Of a DNA stretch of 40,695 nt, positions 29,369 to 40,479 are shown piece after piece (the first letter of the stretch is position 1; every line of letters starts with the position of its first letter). A program made the position numbers and the translations under genes. The notes below the pieces were generated by a model. That model was not told the DNA's origin. It saw nothing but the letters and a program-made list of their open reading frames with translations, and searched no databases. Source of the DNA: Alphaproteobacteria bacterium (GTDB lineage Bacteria > Pseudomonadota > Alphaproteobacteria > JABAAW01); the NCBI GenBank assembly GCA_014237925.1, contig JABACB010000011.1, positions 1 through 40,695 on the forward strand, written 5' to 3'.

Positions 29369-30985
29369 ATGCTGGAACGACTCTTAGCATGGATACAAGG
29401 CTCGAACCGCCGATGGATCGCCATCGGGCTTGGTGCTTTGGGCTTGCTCGCCGTAGCGCTGGTTTTCCTGCTACGCCAAGACTCGTACTCCTTGCTCTAC
29501 GACAATCTGTCGCCCGAAGATTCACGCGCGGTCACCCTGTTGCTGGCACGCCAGCAGATCTCCTACCGCGAAGCGGCGGAAGGAGGGCGCATCATGGTGC
29601 CGGGCCGACAGGTCGGCGAAGCTCGAATTCTCGTCGCCGAAGAAGGGTTGCCACGCGCCGCCTCGCTGGGCTACGAGATCTTCGACCGCGAACAAGGACT
29701 CAGCACCTCCAGCTTTGTCCAAGAAATCAATCGCGTGCGTGCACTCGAAGGAGAGCTGGCGCGCACGATCGTCTCGGTCGAAGGCATCTCGAATGCGCGC
29801 GTCCATATCGTGCTGCCGAAACGAGAGCTGTTTTCGCGCGACAAACAAACCGCCTCCGCCTCGATCATCGTCTCCACACGCCCCGGTCAGACCTTGGAAC
29901 GACGGAAGATCCGAGCCATCCAAAACCTCGTTGCCGCCGCCGTTCCCGACCTCAGCGCCGAAGGCGTCGCCATCACCGACGCGCAAGGAAACTTGCTCGC
30001 GCGCAGCGGCGAAGAGGGAGAGAACATCTTCGGATCAACGCCCGACGAAATTCGCTCGGCTTACGAATCGCGCCTTGCCCAGCAGCTGCAATCGCTGGTC
30101 GGTAGCGTCGTCGGCATCAGCAACGTGCGCGTCGAAAGCAGCGTCGAGCTCGACTTCGGACAGACCGTCGTCAACGAAGAGATCTTCGACCCCGACGGAC
30201 AAGTCCTGCGTTCGTCCGAAGAGATCAACGAGGAGACGCGTAGCACCACCCCCAGCGACCGACAGGTTTCGGTCGAGACCAACCTGCCCGAAGCGCAGCT
30301 CAGAGATTTGGCGCTCGCGGCGGGTGCGCGCGAAGAATCGACACGCTCGGAAATACGACGCAACTACGACATCACCAAACGGCTCGTCAATCGAGTCATC
30401 GCGCCAGGGCAAGTTTCAAAAATATCGGTCGCGGTGCTGGTCGACGGTGCCTACGAAACCCTGGACAACGGCGAGACGCGCTACACGCCGCGCAGCGAAG
30501 AAGAGCTGTTGCAAATCGAACGCCTCGTGCGCTCTGCCATCGGCTACGATCAGGCGAACCGACAGGATAGCGTCGAGGTCGTCAACATGCAGTTCTTCGA
30601 AGAGGTCGCCCCCCCGCTGGAAGACCAAGCGTCGCTGTGGGGGCTGAGCGGCAGAGAGCTCGGCGACTTGTTGGAAAAAACGGTTCTCGCAGGAGTGTTC
30701 CTAGCAGCCTTCCTCGCCGTGATCCTTCCGCTGATGCGGCGTCTGTATGCGGTTCAACGCGAGGAACAGGCTCTGCGGCGGGCGCGCGTGGAAGCTGAAA
30801 TAGAAGAACGGCAGCGCGGAATCGCGGCGGGCTTGCCGATGACCGCCGAAGAGATCGAAGAGACCATGGACATCGATGGCATCGATAGCAGAATAAAATC
30901 TTCGTTGGTAACGAAACTCAACGATGTCATCTCGCGCTATCCTGATGAAACTTACGCTGTCATCAGAGGGTGGCTTGCCGAATGA
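29369..30985 (+). CDS. fliF: Flagellar MS-ring protein FliF
   Basis: Forms the membrane-supramembrane ring that starts flagellar assembly. A membrane helix lies at residues about 16-36, then the ring-building motifs, including LLYDNLSPEDSRAV and LGYEIFDREQGLSTSSFVQ, and RALEGELARTI. The second helix is at about residues 435-455 (TVLAGVFLAAFLAVILPLM). The cytoplasmic C-terminus, residues about 515-538, ends in ISRYPDETYAVIRGWLAE, the FliG-binding tail. 538 residues is the usual length. AAAGAGAGA precedes the ATG. Confidence 0.97.
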   Translation: MLERLLAWIQGSNRRWIAIGLGALGLLAVALVFLLRQDSYSLLYDNLSPEDSRAVTLLLARQQISYREAAEGGRIMVPGRQVGEARILVAEEGLPRAASLGYEIFDREQGLSTSSFVQEINRVRALEGELARTIVSVEGISNARVHIVLPKRELFSRDKQTASASIIVSTRPGQTLERRKIRAIQNLVAAAVPDLSAEGVAITDAQGNLLARSGEEGENIFGSTPDEIRSAYESRLAQQLQSLVGSVVGISNVRVESSVELDFGQTVVNEEIFDPDGQVLRSSEEINEETRSTTPSDRQVSVETNLPEAQLRDLALAAGAREESTRSEIRRNYDITKRLVNRVIAPGQVSKISVAVLVDGAYETLDNGETRYTPRSEEELLQIERLVRSAIGYDQANRQDSVEVVNMQFFEEVAPPLEDQASLWGLSGRELGDLLEKTVLAGVFLAAFLAVILPLMRRLYAVQREEQALRRARVEAEIEERQRGIAAGLPMTAEEIEETMDIDGIDSRIKSSLVTKLNDVISRYPDETYAVIRGWLAE

Positions 30986-31040
30986 TACCGCCTCTTTTCA
31001 CTCGCCGTCTCTTCGCCGCCATGTCTCCTTTGCTCCCGCG

Positions 31041-32108
31041 ATGACCGATTCTCCTCCCCGCCCGCGCCCTCTGCCCGAACGATCGTTCGGTAGCGACACG
31101 CGCCTTGCTTCTTTGGACGACCGTTCCAAGGCGGCGGTGCTGGTCATGGCGATGGGAAACCACCAAGCCGAAGAGCTGATGAAGCGTTTCGACGACAACG
31201 AGTTGCAGCGAATCGGAAAAGCCATCACCGAAGTGGGACGCATTTCGGCAGGGGTTGTCGAGGACATCATCTTGCAGTTCGTACAGCAGGTGACGACCAA
31301 CGCAGATGTGAACGGCTCTTATGCCATCGCTGAAAAACTGTTGCGCGGCGCTCTGCCGCCAGAGCGCGCCGAAGAGATACTGACGCAAATAGGAAGCGCT
31401 GGAGACGGATACAGCATGTGGGAGCAGCTCTCGCAAATATCGCCGGAGATGCTGGCTAACTACCTCATCAGCGAATACCCTCAGACCAGCGCGCTCATTC
31501 TCAGCAAGATGAACCCACAACAAGCGTCGAAGGTCATGGGATTGTTTCCGGACAATATCAATGTCGAGGTGATGAACCGAATCGTCAACCTCGACAATGT
31601 GCAGCGCGAGGTTGTCGACGAGCTCGAAAAAACACTGCGCAACGAGTTCGTGACAACGCTGGGAAAAAGCCGACAGCGCGACACGCACGAAGTGCTCGCC
31701 GACATCTTCAACAACTTCGACAGAGCCACCGAAACGCGACTCATGGACCTGTTCGAAGGACAGGACGCGAAGGCGGCGGAGAAAGTCAAGGCTCTCATGT
31801 TTACGCTCGACGACCTCGTGCGAATCGACGACGAAGGCGTGCAGAGCCTCATCAACTCTTTCCCGCGCGATACGCTGGCGGTCGCCTTGAAAAACACCTC
31901 GCGCCACCTGAGCGAGCTCTTCTTCCGAAACATGTCCGATCGCGCCGCGCGAATCCTGCGCGAGGACATGGCGGCGCTTGGCGACGTGCGCTTGCGAAAA
32001 GTCGAAGATGCGCAAAAAAATCTTGTCACCTTGGCGAAAGAGCTTTCGACCGAAGGTGTCATCGAGGTCATTCCGCGCGGACAAGAAACTAGCGGATGGG
32101 TTTCGTAA
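31041..32108 (+). CDS. fliG: Flagellar motor switch protein FliG
   Basis: Sits on the MS ring and receives torque from MotA. The N-domain includes KAAVLVMAMG, the middle domain MLANYLISEYPQTSALILSKM and the EHPQ-like region, and the C-domain FTLDDLVRIDDEGVQSLI with LKNTSRHLSELFFRNMSDRAARILREDM containing the charged torque helix. 355 residues from the ATG at 31041. It follows fliF after 55 nt and has no Shine-Dalgarno site; a longer frame overlapping fliF is possible but not needed. Confidence 0.95.
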   Translation: MTDSPPRPRPLPERSFGSDTRLASLDDRSKAAVLVMAMGNHQAEELMKRFDDNELQRIGKAITEVGRISAGVVEDIILQFVQQVTTNADVNGSYAIAEKLLRGALPPERAEEILTQIGSAGDGYSMWEQLSQISPEMLANYLISEYPQTSALILSKMNPQQASKVMGLFPDNINVEVMNRIVNLDNVQREVVDELEKTLRNEFVTTLGKSRQRDTHEVLADIFNNFDRATETRLMDLFEGQDAKAAEKVKALMFTLDDLVRIDDEGVQSLINSFPRDTLAVALKNTSRHLSELFFRNMSDRAARILREDMAALGDVRLRKVEDAQKNLVTLAKELSTEGVIEVIPRGQETSGWVS

Positions 32109-32113
32109 AGAAA

Positions 32114-33154
32114 ATGAGTACCATCGCCGATCCTGCTCTGGAGGACGACAGCGGCTTTGTCCGCGGCATCGCCGCCAGCGAGCGTCCTTCCGCCACCTTG
32201 TCCTCACACGCCGCAAAGCGGGCAGGGTCTTCGTCCTTCGTGCCGCTGCGCGACTTGGACAAACCGCAAGTGGCGCACACGGACGCGCCCTTGAGAGACG
32301 CGGGCGACGGCAAGCTCGCGATCGCCGATGTCGCCAACGGCGCCTTCGAACCCATCTGGGGGACGGAAACTAAGCCGCGATCGCAGCGCGAGATATTTTT
32401 GGCAGAGCAAGCATTCGTGCAAGGAAAGCAGCAGGGCGAGGAAGAGACAGAAAAACGCGCGCACGCACGAGGACTCCAAGAAGGGCGCGAGAGCGGCTAC
32501 AAACAAGGCTTCCAAGATGGCGAAAAGGAGCGCATCGGCGAACTCGAAAAACACGCCGAAGAGCTGGCGCAGCAGATCACCGACAAGCGAATCGAGACGA
32601 TCGTAGAGTTTCTCGAAAAACTCACGCAACGCGAGAAGGAAGCCTCGCACAAACGCGACATCGAGCTGATGGCGCTGATGATCGCCATCTTCGACAAGAC
32701 CCTGCCGGCGCTCGCTCAAGAGAACGGCGAGAAGGAGGTGCAATTCTTCCTGAAGGCGATCTTGCAACGATTCGAAAACATTCCGCAGATCACAATCACA
32801 CTGGCTGAAGGGGCGCAGGAGTTCGCCGAGCTGCTACGGGAGAGGGTGTTTGCTTGCAACAAGAGCCTCGTCTCGTTTCGGTTCGATCCTTCGTTTGCGA
32901 TCGCCGATTGCAGAATCGCTTGGGCAGAGGGCGAGGTCGAACGGCGATTCCTCTCCTTGTGGCAAGAGGTGAAACAGGCGCTGCAACAGCACCTGCCGAC
33001 CGCCGCGAGCAGCGAAGCCGAGACGACCGAGACAGTCGAGACGACTGAGACAGTCGAGGCGACTGAGACAGCCGAGACGACTGAGACAGCCGAGAAAAAA
33101 GCGACGGAGACGCAAGACGGAGCGAGCGAGCATCATAAGGAGGCTGCAGCGTGA
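32114..33154 (+). CDS. fliH: Flagellar export regulator FliH with C-terminal repeat
   Basis: Binds the FliI ATPase and links it to FliN. Identification rests on the spaced small-residue pattern (GKQQGEEETEKRAHARG, GRESGYKQGFQDG), typical of FliH GxxxG helices, then coiled coil and a C-domain ending near FLSLWQEVKQAL, plus its place between fliG and fliN. An acidic Thr/Glu-rich tail of TETVET/TETAET repeats follows. The ATG at 32114 is chosen; an in-frame ATG at 32096 overlaps the fliG stop. 346 residues is long for FliH (about 230), owing to an N-terminal extension and the tail. No fliI is seen in the window. Confidence 0.8.
   Translation: MSTIADPALEDDSGFVRGIAASERPSATLSSHAAKRAGSSSFVPLRDLDKPQVAHTDAPLRDAGDGKLAIADVANGAFEPIWGTETKPRSQREIFLAEQAFVQGKQQGEEETEKRAHARGLQEGRESGYKQGFQDGEKERIGELEKHAEELAQQITDKRIETIVEFLEKLTQREKEASHKRDIELMALMIAIFDKTLPALAQENGEKEVQFFLKAILQRFENIPQITITLAEGAQEFAELLRERVFACNKSLVSFRFDPSFAIADCRIAWAEGEVERRFLSLWQEVKQALQQHLPTAASSEAETTETVETTETVEATETAETTETAEKKATETQDGASEHHKEAAA
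33020..33091. repeat. 18-nt repeats in the fliH tail
   Basis: Four tandem 18-mers (gagacgactgagacagtc type) encoding ETTETV/EATETA hexapeptides at the FliH C-terminus. Confidence 0.93.
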
Positions 33155-33459
33155 GCGACGACGACTTTTTGGGCGGAAACCTTTTGTCCGACTCGCCCCA
33201 GCCGAGCGGCATGTCTCCGACGCAGGATTTGGAGATCGTCCGCAATGTGCCTGTGCGCGTGTCGGCGGTTCTCGGCAAGGTGCGTCTGCAAGTTCGTGAT
33301 CTGCTCAAGTTGCGCTCGGGATCGGTCGTCGAGCTGGATCGCAAGGTCGGCGAAGCGATCGACATCTATGTCAACGATCGCCTCGTTGCGCGCGGCGAGG
33401 TGGTTGTGAGCGAGAATCGACTCGCGATCAGCATCACCGAGATTATTCGAATCGAATAA
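33151..33459 (+). CDS. fliN: Flagellar motor switch protein FliN
   Basis: C-ring component near the export gate. The SpoA-type domain is clear: VPVRVSAVLGKVRLQVRDLLKLRSGSVVELDR then VNDRLVARGEVVV and ITEII. 102 residues, typical. The GTG start overlaps the fliH stop (GTGA) and has TAAGGAGG ending 7 nt upstream, one of the strongest ribosome sites here. Confidence 0.96.
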   Translation: MSDDDFLGGNLLSDSPQPSGMSPTQDLEIVRNVPVRVSAVLGKVRLQVRDLLKLRSGSVVELDRKVGEAIDIYVNDRLVARGEVVVSENRLAISITEIIRIE

Positions 33460-33465
33460 CGATAT

Positions 33466-33491
33466 AGGAGACCACTCCAGGAGATCACTCT
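33466..33491. repeat. 13-nt duplication of the motA ribosome site
   Basis: Two 13-mers, aggagaccactcc and aggagatcactct, immediately before the motA ATG. Each begins with AGGAG. The second copy places AGGAG 8 nt from the start; the first is too far to act on this ATG. Confidence 0.9.
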
Positions 33492-34319
33492 ATGGCTACT
33501 CAGGAAACCGCCACAACAACCCAAATCCGCCTTGTTCGCAGGTACTATACCTTCGACTTTGCCACAGTCTTTGGGTTGTTCGCTGGCTTCGCCTTCGTTG
33601 CGATCGCCATCTTCACAGGGGGATCGGCGGGAGCTTTCATCAATCCGCCCTCGATGATGATCGTGCTCGGCGGAACCTTCGGCGTGCTGATGGCATGCTT
33701 TACCCTCAGAGACCTGCGCGAAGGACTCTCCTATGCGCTGACAGCAATCTCGCGCGACAAAAACGCGCCGCACGAAGTGGCAGAGCAGCTCTTCCAAATG
33801 TCGCAAGTCGCGCGACAGAGAGGCATGCTGCAATTCCAAAACACCGTCCAGCAGGTCACAGGACAACCCCTGCTCACCAAGGGGTTGCGTCTCATCGCAG
33901 AGGGCGCTACCGACACCGACATATCACGCATTCTTTCCAACGAGGCTCAGCAAATCTCTCAAGCGCGCAACCGATCGATCACCATCCTCAGACGCGGTGC
34001 AGGACTTTCTCCTGCGATGGGCTTGATCGGTACTTTGGTCGGACTCGTACAAATGCTCGCCCAGCTCGACGACCCCTCAACGATAGGACCCAGCATGGCG
34101 GTCGCTCTGCTAACAACCTTCTACGGTGTCATCCTTTCCAACATGGTCTTCACACCGCTCGTCAGCAAGCTCGAGCAGAACTCCGAAGAAGAAGATATGG
34201 TCAACCGTATGTACATCTCGGCTGCCATCTCCATCCGCAGGCAGGAGAATCCGCGACGACTCAGGATGTTGCTCAACGCGCTCTTGCCGGCGAGAGAACA
34301 ACTTTTCGACAACGACTGA
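33492..34319 (+). CDS. motA: Flagellar stator protein MotA (PomA-like)
   Basis: Inner membrane stator subunit that conducts ions with MotB and turns the rotor. Four membrane segments: residues about 24-44, 49-68, and a later pair around GLSPAMGLIGTLVGLVQML and AVALLTTFYGVILSNMVFTPL, the MotA/TolQ/ExbB signature. The large cytoplasmic loop lies between segments 2 and 3. 275 residues fits. No motB is adjacent in this window. The placement between fliN and flbD is known from some alphaproteobacteria. Confidence 0.92.
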   Translation: MATQETATTTQIRLVRRYYTFDFATVFGLFAGFAFVAIAIFTGGSAGAFINPPSMMIVLGGTFGVLMACFTLRDLREGLSYALTAISRDKNAPHEVAEQLFQMSQVARQRGMLQFQNTVQQVTGQPLLTKGLRLIAEGATDTDISRILSNEAQQISQARNRSITILRRGAGLSPAMGLIGTLVGLVQMLAQLDDPSTIGPSMAVALLTTFYGVILSNMVFTPLVSKLEQNSEEEDMVNRMYISAAISIRRQENPRRLRMLLNALLPAREQLFDND

Positions 34320-34322
34320 CCG

Positions 34323-35663
34323 ATGAAACTTTTGATCGTCGGCGCACTCGAAGGATATCTGACGAAAGCTTCCTCTGTCGCTCAGAAGCGCGGTTGTCAA
34401 ATATGTCATGTCGATGCGCCTGCGCAAGCCGTCGACATGCTGTGCGGCGATGTCTCTTTCGACCTCGTGCTGATCGACGACAAGTGTGACATCCCCTCGT
34501 TCGCTCAGAACTTGAGAGAGCAGCGAATCGCCGCAACCCTTGTCGCTTGCGGGCTGGGAGCGGACGCGAAACACGCGGTCAAAGCCATCAAGGCGGGTGC
34601 GGTAGAATATCTGCCCTTGCCGCCAGACCCCGACATCATCGCAGCTTTGCTGGAAAGCGCCGTCGAAGAGCAGTCGGACATGATCTACCGTAGCGCAGCG
34701 ATGGACAAGGTCGTTCTGACAGCCAACAAGATCGCCAAAAGCGACGCCTCCGTTCTCATCCTCGGAGAATCGGGAACGGGCAAGGAGGTTCTCGCGCGAC
34801 ACATCCATGCAGGCAGCAAGCGCAAGGGCATGCCTTTCGTTGCCGTCAACTGCGCAGCGATTCCTGAGACGCTGCTGGAATCCGAACTCTTCGGACACGA
34901 GAAGGGCGCCTTCAGTGGAGCGGTCGCGCGACGCTTGGGAAAGTTCGAACAGGCGAACGCAGGCACCCTGCTGCTCGACGAGATCAGCGAGATGGATATG
35001 CGCCTGCAAGCCAAGCTGCTGCGTGCAATACAGGAGCGCGAAATCGACCGTTTGGGCGCAACAAAACCCGTCAAGGTCAATGTGCGCATCTTGGCGACCA
35101 GCAACCGCAACTTGCAAGAGGCGTGCAACGGCGGCAGCTTCCGCGAAGACCTCTACTTCCGTCTCAATGTCGTCTCGCTCACCCTGCCGCCGCTGCGCGC
35201 GCGCAAGGACGACATCGTTCTGCTCGCCGAGCATTTCGCTCGCAAGTACGCCGACGAGAACGCCATGGAGCAAAAACCCTTTTCTTCGGAAGCCATCGAA
35301 GCTCTCACGCAGCATGCATGGAGCGGCAACATCCGCGAGCTCGAAAACGCTGTCCATCGCGCCGTCCTGCTGGCGGAAGGCGAGCAGATCCAGCCGCAAA
35401 CCCTTCCCTTCTACGAGCAGGCGCAAAACGAGACTGAAGAGCTTGAAAAAACAAAGTCTCCAGGCTCAGGAGCTGACCATGCGCGGGGAAACAAGCTTGC
35501 GAAGGTGGAGCGCGAAGCTGTGTTGGAAACCCTTTCAGGCGCACAGGGCGACTATCATCAGGCTGCGAGCATTCTCGGTATTTCGATTCGCCTGCTGCGC
35601 CGCAAGCTCGATCGCTACGCGAGCGAAGGACATGTCGTCGAGCAACAAGAGACTTCTCCCTAA
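34323..35663 (+). CDS. flbD: FlbD-type sigma54-dependent flagellar activator
   Basis: Activates sigma54 promoters of flagellar genes. Residues about 1-115 are a receiver-like domain lacking an obvious full acidic pocket. The AAA+ domain has Walker A GESGTGKE at 148-155, the sigma54-contact loop as GAFSGA at 195-200 (GAFTGA in most family members) and FREDLYFRLNV. A Fis-type helix-turn-helix ends the protein (GDYHQAASILGISIRLLRRKL). 446 residues matches FlbD. The gene follows motA by 3 nt. Together with fliF/flhA context this is FlbD rather than a general NtrC. Confidence 0.93.
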   Translation: MKLLIVGALEGYLTKASSVAQKRGCQICHVDAPAQAVDMLCGDVSFDLVLIDDKCDIPSFAQNLREQRIAATLVACGLGADAKHAVKAIKAGAVEYLPLPPDPDIIAALLESAVEEQSDMIYRSAAMDKVVLTANKIAKSDASVLILGESGTGKEVLARHIHAGSKRKGMPFVAVNCAAIPETLLESELFGHEKGAFSGAVARRLGKFEQANAGTLLLDEISEMDMRLQAKLLRAIQEREIDRLGATKPVKVNVRILATSNRNLQEACNGGSFREDLYFRLNVVSLTLPPLRARKDDIVLLAEHFARKYADENAMEQKPFSSEAIEALTQHAWSGNIRELENAVHRAVLLAEGEQIQPQTLPFYEQAQNETEELEKTKSPGSGADHARGNKLAKVEREAVLETLSGAQGDYHQAASILGISIRLLRRKLDRYASEGHVVEQQETSP

Positions 35664-37891: not shown

Positions 37892-39787
37892 GTGCGCTAC
37901 AAAAACTTCCAAGCCGAAACGCTCGCCGCCGCACGCGCACAAGTGCGCCAAGATCTCGGCGAGGATGCACTCATCGCAGCCACGCACGACTTGGGCAAGG
38001 AAGGCTACAGAATCGTCTGCGCGCTGGAGCCCAAAGACGCTACGAACAGCGCGGGCAAAGAAGAATGGCAGCAGGACAGGCGCAAATCCATGCCACAACG
38101 TCAAGCCGCCGACCTCGCGCGTGCGCTCGCGTGGCACCAGCTTCCCTTTGAAATCGCTGAGGAGATTCTCGATCTCGCCGCCGACCAGCGCCATCGCCGC
38201 GCCGACGAAGAAGTCCTTGCCTCGGCGTTCGAACGGATCTTGTGCTTCCAACCCTTGCAAACCCTGTGGCAGGATCGACGGCAACGTCGCTTCCTCTTCT
38301 TCGGTCCTCCGGGCAGCGGCAAGACCGCCACTTGCGTCAAAGCTGCGTGGATCGCGCGTTGCGCAGGCGACCATCCGACCTTAGTCTCGAGCGACAGCTT
38401 GCGCACGGGCGGCGCCGAACAGCTCGAAATGTACGCCGAGAAGGTCGCTTGCCGCTTCTTCCATTGCCGCTCGCAACAACGTTTCCAAAAGCTCATCGAG
38501 GACAAAAGCTCTCGAGATCTGCTCTTCATCGACGCGCCGGGAATCAATCCTCACGCGAAAGAAGAACGAGCCGTCCTCCACAATCTCACGCAGCATGCCT
38601 CGATCGTGCCGGTGCTGGTCATGCCGACATGGGTCGATATCCAAGCGGGCATCGATTTGGTGGATGCCTTCCCCGTGCAGAACTGCAAACACCTCATCAT
38701 CACGGGCGAAGACATCGACCGAAGGCTCGGACGCGCGATCGCCATCGCTCGACACGCCGCACTCAACATCGCCTATGTCAGCCCGCGCCCGCACATTGCG
38801 CAAGGGCTCGAACCCCTCTCCGCCCGTTCGCTCGCCGAACGCTGCCTGAAAGATGTTCCGCAAAGCTTCCTGCAAACGCAGCGTCTCAACACGCGAAAGT
38901 CCGTTCTCGCCACCTCACACGCTTCACCCAACAGCACCCCCGACGACAAAGCACCACCCATAAACCTCCCCCCAGCCTCGACGCAAAGCCCGCGCACAGC
39001 AGGCGTAAACCGAAAGGGTCTCTCTTCGCGCAAACCCTACCAAATCGCTGTCGCGTCAGGAAAAGGCGGCGTCGGCAAGACCGCCGTCGCCATCGCGCTG
39101 GCGCACTGCTTCGCTGATTTGGGAAGGAAGACACTCCTCTTCGACGCCGACCTTGGGCTCGCCAACATCGACATACAACTCGGCGTCATGCCGCAACACC
39201 ATCTCGCTGAGGCGCTCAGGGGACAATGTCTTCTCAAAGATTGCGTCGTGCGCGCACCGCAAGGCACTTTCGATACCATCGTCGGCAAATCGGGGAGCGC
39301 CAGTTTCGCCGACCTTGCCCCGCCGTCGTTGCAAAAACTCGTGGAGGATTTGCTCGAGCTCGCTCTCGACTACCAAACGCTGATCATAGACCTGGGTGCC
39401 GGGATCGATCGCACCGTGCGCTGGCTGACCGTCGCCTCCGATGAAACGCTGCTCGTCGTCAACGACGAACCCACCTCTCTGACGGATGCTTACGCGCTCG
39501 TCAAGATCATTTTACGTCGCCAGCCCGAAGCGCGCCTCTCGGTTGTCGTGAACATGGCGGAGACGGAGCGCCGCGCCGAGCAGGCTTTCGAATCGTTGCA
39601 GCGCACATGCCGTAATTTTTTAAACTACGACTTGCGCCTGAAAGGGATCGTGCGCCGCGACTTGAATCTTGTTGAGGCGATTCGCAACCGCGAACCCTTG
39701 CTGACCTTTGCTCCGCATGCGCCTGCCGCCCAAGATCTAGCCAAGCTTGCCAGAACGTTTCCTCATGGAGCGAACGACAATTCTTGA
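37892..39787 (+). CDS. flhF: FlhF-FlhG fusion: flagellar placement GTPase joined to number-control ATPase
   Basis: One unbroken 631-codon frame. Residues 1-340 are FlhF, an SRP-type GTPase that marks where the flagellum is built: N-terminal B region from RYKNFQAETLAAARAQVRQDLGEDALI, P-loop GPPGSGKT at 138-145, G3 as DAPG at 214-217 (DTAG in typical FlhF) and TGED in place of the TKxD G4 motif. A Pro/Ser/Thr-rich linker (about 341-380) leads to FlhG, a MinD-type ATPase: deviant Walker A KGGVGKT at 391-397, switch region DADLGLANIDIQLG, and LIIDLGAGID around D500. FlhG normally starts with a DQAxxLR activator helix for FlhF; none is seen in the linker. The GTG start lacks a Shine-Dalgarno site. 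Confidence 0.9.
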   Translation: MRYKNFQAETLAAARAQVRQDLGEDALIAATHDLGKEGYRIVCALEPKDATNSAGKEEWQQDRRKSMPQRQAADLARALAWHQLPFEIAEEILDLAADQRHRRADEEVLASAFERILCFQPLQTLWQDRRQRRFLFFGPPGSGKTATCVKAAWIARCAGDHPTLVSSDSLRTGGAEQLEMYAEKVACRFFHCRSQQRFQKLIEDKSSRDLLFIDAPGINPHAKEERAVLHNLTQHASIVPVLVMPTWVDIQAGIDLVDAFPVQNCKHLIITGEDIDRRLGRAIAIARHAALNIAYVSPRPHIAQGLEPLSARSLAERCLKDVPQSFLQTQRLNTRKSVLATSHASPNSTPDDKAPPINLPPASTQSPRTAGVNRKGLSSRKPYQIAVASGKGGVGKTAVAIALAHCFADLGRKTLLFDADLGLANIDIQLGVMPQHHLAEALRGQCLLKDCVVRAPQGTFDTIVGKSGSASFADLAPPSLQKLVEDLLELALDYQTLIIDLGAGIDRTVRWLTVASDETLLVVNDEPTSLTDAYALVKIILRRQPEARLSVVVNMAETERRAEQAFESLQRTCRNFLNYDLRLKGIVRRDLNLVEAIRNREPLLTFAPHAPAAQDLAKLARTFPHGANDNS

Positions 39788-40479
39788 TGGAAATTCTTTC
39801 TCCATTGACCAAGCTTTTGCGTTGGGAACGCGATCCTGGGCTCTCGCAGTCTTCTCGCAGTGACGGAGGGCAATTTCCATCGAGCAGAACGGCAACAGTT
39901 CGACATACGGAAGATCTTTCTGCGGCCAGTGTTTTTCGGCAACTCTACGCCTTGTCTCCGAAAGAATTGCAACGGTTTGTTTCGCAACAATTGCCTTTTT
40001 TGTGCGATCCGTATTTTTCGAAACGCTTGGCGCACACGGCCGCTTCCGTCAGCGCGGGCGAGGGTGATGGGGTTGAAAAAGTATTGGACAGCTACCTCGT
40101 GCGCGACAAAGCCGGCGGCTTTTGGAAGATATGGGTTCTGCCCGTTGCGCTCGAAGGGCGACTTGGCAAAGTCACGCTCTACCTTTCGCAGAAGCGGCGG
40201 AAGAAAAACAGAGAAAAAAACAACGACAGAATTATCCTTGCAACCGAGTTGGAATCCACAGGTCCCATAGAAATTGAAGTTGATGTTTTCGAGCGCTCTC
40301 TGTCGCTTGCATTGCGCTCGACACGCTCCTTTTCTGCTTTTGCGCAGGCAGGTATTCGAGAGCGGTTTTTACAAATTCTTGAAGTCGTGCGTATGCAGGG
40401 TAGCATCAATTTCTACACGGTGTCGTCTCTTTCGATGGACACTCTCGCTCCTCAAACTGCATGGGAGGTCGAATTATGA
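39787..40479 (+). CDS. FliK C-terminal-like flagellar protein (tentative)
   Basis: 230 residues starting at an ATG that overlaps the flhF-flhG stop (TGATG), so it is probably translated with it. No signal peptide or membrane helix. Residues about 110-215 (WKIWVLPVALEGRLGKVTLYLSQ to ILEVVRMQGSINFY) resemble the C-terminal hook-length domain of FliK-type proteins in the pattern of strands and the GPIEIEV stretch, but similarity is only by eye. A Lys/Arg/Asn-rich insertion splits that region. Its function could be hook-length related or unknown. More A/T-rich than the genes before it. Confidence 0.4.
   Translation: MEILSPLTKLLRWERDPGLSQSSRSDGGQFPSSRTATVRHTEDLSAASVFRQLYALSPKELQRFVSQQLPFLCDPYFSKRLAHTAASVSAGEGDGVEKVLDSYLVRDKAGGFWKIWVLPVALEGRLGKVTLYLSQKRRKKNREKNNDRIILATELESTGPIEIEVDVFERSLSLALRSTRSFSAFAQAGIRERFLQILEVVRMQGSINFYTVSSLSMDTLAPQTAWEVEL

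Follow-up and report, generated by a model that had tools for sequence, protein, structure and literature searches.

A conserved FlhF-FlhG fusion in one order of Alphaproteobacteria, probably a tethered switch of flagellar placement and number

In studied species, the N-terminal domain of FlhF holds FliG and its NG domain binds a polar landmark; FlhG delivers FliM/FliN and sets off GTP hydrolysis by FlhF, upon which the block is released (PMC12826062). Current models have the two proteins opposed from different places, with FlhG alternating between a cytoplasmic and a membrane-bound state (PMC12826062). In V. parahaemolyticus the localisation of FlhF and FlhG is distinct and cell-cycle dependent, FlhG being mostly diffuse and briefly polar around cell division (PMC8009987). 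A locus in an alphaproteobacterial draft genome (assembly GCA_014237925.1, contig JABACB010000011.1) raises the question of whether the two can work as one protein. In the 40,695-nucleotide stretch analysed here, termed the window, the original prediction had placed FlhF and FlhG in a single reading frame. If such a fusion stays uncut, both halves share one chain, so FlhG cannot visit the pole independently of FlhF.

The single frame was borne out by our analysis. It is open from a GTG to a TGA codon, contains no internal stop and encodes 631 amino acids, and both halves were recognised by profile and by structure (Table 1). By profiles and model, the FlhF half consists of a B domain, which is the FliG-interaction domain in other species (PMC12826062), followed by N and G domains. 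Its GTPase motifs are G1 GPPGSGKT (residues 138-145), G2 (168-178), G3 DAPG (214-217) and G4 TGED (271-274), the last two exactly as predicted; G1, G2 and the Asp residues of G3 and G4 are intact, and Gly occupies the G4 Lys position. The FlhG half carries the deviant Walker A motif GKGGVGKT (390-397) and is nearer to FlhG/FleN (5j1j; 4rz2, 8e-38) than to MinD (5e-20). An AlphaFold2 model (mean pLDDT 87.8) was confident for both halves, with pLDDT below 50 at residues 346-376 and short low-confidence bits at 59-61 and the C-terminus; its pTM was 0.63, and it gave no sign that the halves meet at a fixed interface. Foldseek searches with this model placed FlhG/FleN (4rz3, 5j1j) on top, then MinD/ParA proteins and SRP GTPases including FlhF (8r9r, 2px0). 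The Pro/Ser/Thr-rich linker was rightly described as free of the DQAxxLR helix. It measures about 40-60 residues, depending on where the C-terminal helix of FlhF is taken to end. We confirm that the fusion gene is real, with an FlhF half, a disordered Pro/Ser/Thr-rich linker and an FlhG/FleN-type ATPase in one frame.

Table 1 Features of the window around the fused gene, with one further ORF on the reverse strand.
Feature	Position	Strand	Evidence or remark
MurF-like ORF, 715 aa	15288..17435	-	Family match only from residue 185
fliF, fliG, fliH-like, fliN and motA-like genes	29369..34319	+	Same cluster as the fusion
flbD-type sigma-54 flagellar regulator	34323..35663	+	NF050807 FlbD 3.4e-183, under its curated cut-off
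flhA, 706 aa	35730..37850	+	Pfam FHIPEP 2.9e-242; 41 bp upstream of the fusion
Fused flhF-flhG gene, 631 aa	37892..39787	+	GTG start, TGA stop; profile and structure-sequence matches
FlhF N-terminal B domain, aa 1-47	37892..38032	+	Confident predicted beta-alpha-beta-beta fold; dN/dS 0.05
FlhF N-G domain, aa 70-322	38099..38857	+	TIGR03499 3.8e-30 (residues 71-217); Pfam SRP54 1.9e-20 (residues 134-319); motif table
Linker region, aa 323-381	38858..39034	+	C-terminal helix 324-343, then disordered Pro/Ser/Thr-rich tract 346-376
FlhG/FleN-type MinD-like ATPase, aa 382-623	39035..39760	+	phmmer 5j1j 3.8e-45 (residues 375-614); Foldseek 4rz3/5j1j
Downstream ORF	39784..40479	+	Overlaps the fusion stop; start TTG 39784 or ATG 39787

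The gene belongs to a flagellar cluster in the order fliF-fliG-fliH-fliN-motA-flbD-flhA-flhFG, whose FlbD regulator is of the Caulobacter type. It should be noted that the window FlhF scored 105.8 bits against TIGR03499, under the NCBI curated cut-off of 174 bits, which is a convention and not a biological criterion. The four unfused FlhF proteins of the class and three other fusions that were scanned, at 120-157 bits, also scored below it (the class FlhF proteins P0001, P0003, P0005, P0006, L012, L016, L024, L046 and L048, at 106-157 bits, all do so), so it is the model that falls short for this class. The assignment to FlhF is based on position in the operon, domain content and trees. Given such scores, automatic annotation may miss the FlhF name, which is perhaps why members of the class have been overlooked.

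The host order, which is small and uncultured, was sampled with six species from two families, all represented by draft genomes (64-94% complete). The fusion was present in all six and complete in one uninterrupted frame in five (G000, G001 = L003, G002 = L002, G003 = L004 and G005 = L024), so that in the related genomes L002, L003, L004 and L024 the gene is fused and not split. Identity to the window gene was 82% for L002 and 36% for L024, which comes from the other family of the order. In the sixth species (G004 = L005), the contig ends inside the linker, within a 12-base repeat. This tandem repeat, GTAGAGGCAAGG, lies at L005:8993-9042.

A second flhG copy was looked for and not found in the window's own genome (86% complete), where no other FlhF or FlhG match appeared even at E 0.01. 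Family searches likewise found no separate second flhF or flhG in the genomes of the order. Besides the fusion, these genomes carry Ffh- and FtsY-type SRP GTPases, identified as such only from their number, size and score, and most have a ParA-like gene; the FlhF half adds a third SRP GTPase to these two types, inside the flagellar operon. Flagellin was detected above threshold in G003, G004 and G005 and not in G000-G002, which counts against a flagellar role of the fusion in the latter, although their genomes are only 69-86% complete.

Between G000 and L002, dN/dS was 0.05 for the B domain, 0.18 for FlhF NG, 0.08 for FlhG and 0.65 for the linker. Apart from G000-L002 (43%), all pairs of linkers were 13-28% identical. 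When the window linker was base-shuffled, about 73% of the resulting sequences contained a stop, yet all five complete linkers of the order are open, even at identities down to 13-16%. The FlhF and FlhG halves are under strong purifying selection, and the linker drifts yet stays open.

To place the fusion more broadly, searches were run on 60 relatives and on 385 class and 399 phylum genomes, all of them Pseudomonadota; nearly all of the listed matches with fusion-length frames were read in DNA, and for a few a checked genome from the same genus or family stood in. Among the matches listed, flhF and flhG were separate neighbours at about 105 distinct other loci of the class and phylum. In the 76 scored unfused loci of the class, flhF was always directly upstream of flhG (76/76), a median of 81 nt separated the flhF stop from the FlhG P-loop, and the two genes shared a frame in 12. 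This short gap makes stop loss an easy route to fusion. Most simply, the gene would have originated when the flhF stop was lost and translation ran on through the short intergenic stretch.

One further fusion was found among the matches listed; it comes from G112, which belongs to a different order of the class (L045:965-2812; 615 aa in one frame). About 45 other loci with long frames or apparent read-through were inspected, and all but that of G112 proved to hold two genes, either divided by a stop or lying in different frames. A candidate fusion in G037 (L014) was rejected on base-by-base reading, and PRK14723, a 768-aa FlhF model, is not a known fusion, as it matches the FlhF half alone.

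The five complete fusions of the host order formed one clade in trees of concatenated FlhF and FlhG (1.0), FlhF alone (0.998) and FlhG alone (0.856), and the order was monophyletic in the rpoB tree (99). The rpoB tree places the genome of G112, the sole sampled species of its order, among unfused lineages (a set at 97). The G112 fusion resembles the window gene in being a one-frame FlhF-FlhG with a similar linker. However, its G4 motif is the canonical TKLD, whereas all five complete fusions of the host order have TGED. AU tests did not reject a single fusion clade (p 0.73 for FlhFG and p 0.23 for rpoB); in the FlhFG test, the constrained tree outscored the quick free search. The G112 fusion is probably a second, independent origin.

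The original prediction had treated the missing DQAxxLR helix, absent from both the linker and the FlhG half of the window gene, as a feature of the fusion. This did not hold, since unfused FlhG proteins of the class are without it too. Of the class rows scanned, fusions among them, 83 had a recognisable Walker motif and two did not; the strict pattern occurred in none of the 83, and a looser pattern occurred in one row, upstream of that row's own start Met. Outside the class, about two-thirds of the 30 phylum rows had N-terminal DQASGLR or DNQ(A/V) variants; the helix is not universal in the family, being absent from the FleN/FlhG proteins L080, L081, L085 and L102. The C-terminal part of FlhG, where an amphipathic membrane-targeting sequence would lie, averages 43-46 aa in the class and the fusions, versus 67 aa in the other Pseudomonadota sampled, and a short amphipathic helix remains. 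Helix-less FlhG with a short C-terminus was seen class-wide, fused or not (L006, L011-L062, L093-L130). Loss of the helix at the fusion event is rejected on these grounds, and the tether was no substitute for a helix that disappeared then. As judged from the sequences compared, the fusion arose from an already minimal FlhF and FlhG, the latter already without the helix. Since this helix is thought to trigger FlhF GTP hydrolysis, the class would have to use another trigger or none.

We consider it likely that the gene is a vertically inherited FlhF-FlhG fusion that replaced the ancestral adjacent genes and works as a tethered switch of flagellar placement and number. We infer that the fusion is made and kept as one protein, for which a covalently tethered 1:1 FlhF-FlhG switch is the most likely mechanism. 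The checkpoint and dimer logic of this proposal is taken from PMC12826062. In this scheme, the B domain would take hold of FliG on the basal body as it forms. With GTP the GTPase would build a head-to-tail dimer, and with ATP the tethered FlhG half would dimerise as well, so that one 2:2 unit results. Release, in which FlhF frees FliG and FlhG brings FliM/FliN, could then take place within one assembly, without recruiting cytoplasmic FlhG. As FlhG of the class lacks both the helix and the longer C-terminal tail, a tether would be the simplest way to hold the halves together, and it may keep them working jointly in the absence of the enhancer helix. The chances seem about even for a fuller version, in which one protein is both positive (FlhF) and negative (FlhG) regulator, both NTPase cycles are coupled, FlhG no longer moves on its own between cytoplasm and pole, a movement regarded as central to the switch, and the fusion maybe evolved twice.

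The main rival to the tethered switch is cleavage after synthesis. The chain would be cut in the disordered linker and FlhF and FlhG would act separately, with only their synthesis at 1:1; the predicted fixing of the ratio is supported at this level, that of synthesis. The fast-evolving, disordered stretch at residues 346-376 would suit a protease-accessible spacer. However, no conserved cleavage motif was seen in the linkers of the order, and the frame stays open in five diverged species, where a stop codon would be a simpler means of separation. We regard cleavage as unlikely.

The prediction had also tied changes in the FlhF motifs to the fusion. This connection fails for G3, because DxPG is common in unfused FlhF of the class. 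The G4 Lys is mostly Arg in unfused FlhF of the class and Gly throughout the order; TGED is specific to the order and keeps the guanine-reading Asp274. The G4 change would fit a protein in which one half, most likely FlhF with its TGED, is a non-catalytic scaffold and the other NTPase does most of the work. A scaffold role is nevertheless improbable, more so than cleavage: G1 (apart from its variable position), the Asp residues of G3 and G4, and Asp, Arg and Gln of G2 are invariant in the order, FlhF NG is constrained at the dN/dS given above, and Gly at the G4 Lys/Arg position also occurs in five unfused members of the class.

Still less probable is that FlhG is also made alone from an internal start in the linker, comparable to some overlapping gene pairs. 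In-frame linker ATG codons are present in L002, L003, L004, L024 and L045, but they lie at differing places with weak Shine-Dalgarno matches (at most 4/6), and in the window gene the stretch between the G domain and the FlhG P-loop is free of ATG, GTG and TTG. Separate FlhG could therefore arise from the window gene only via an unusual start or proteolysis. Finally, although the window comes from a draft genome of 409 contigs, an assembly or sequencing artefact joining two genes is already refuted by the conserved frame: the join recurs in five species whose genomes were assembled separately (36-82% identity) and once more in a different order, with codon-level purifying selection on either side of it.

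The tethered switch we propose shares its parts with known systems. FlhF and FlhG (FleN, YlxH, MotR) of Vibrio, Shewanella, Pseudomonas and Bacillus have the same domains, namely the B and NG domains of FlhF and the MinD-like ATPase fold of FlhG, and the same gene order near flhA. However, they are two proteins, many of the FlhG members have a DQAxxLR-type helix, and the C-terminal tail of those sampled is longer on average, whereas here a single chain lacks both that helix and the longer tail. Separate alphaproteobacterial pairs (such as L006, L046 and L039) share the short FlhF and the helix-less FlhG with a short C-terminus, but they are two adjacent genes with G4 usually TRLD, compared with one gene and TGED here. 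A review of December 2025 describes FlhG as a single-domain protein and never uses the words "fused" or "fusion" (PMC12826062), and, in line with the prediction that none had been described, we found no account of a natural FlhF-FlhG fusion in open-licence PMC text. The novelty is that the fusion in this order departs from a separate, single-domain FlhG.

Its presence across a lineage suggests that the flagellar system maintained there can accommodate a fixed 1:1 ratio and obligatory co-localisation. The fusion is a natural test of whether FlhF and FlhG need to act apart, and its linker offers a ready design for testing in Vibrio or Shewanella whether ratio and separate movement matter.

Two further ORFs of the window were noted. 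The one overlapping the fusion stop had no Pfam or NCBIfam match; at the corresponding place, L006 and L024 have Gln/Pro-rich, possibly FliK-like ORFs. Either the N-terminus of the MurF-like ORF is extended by a long stretch, or its TTG start is wrong.
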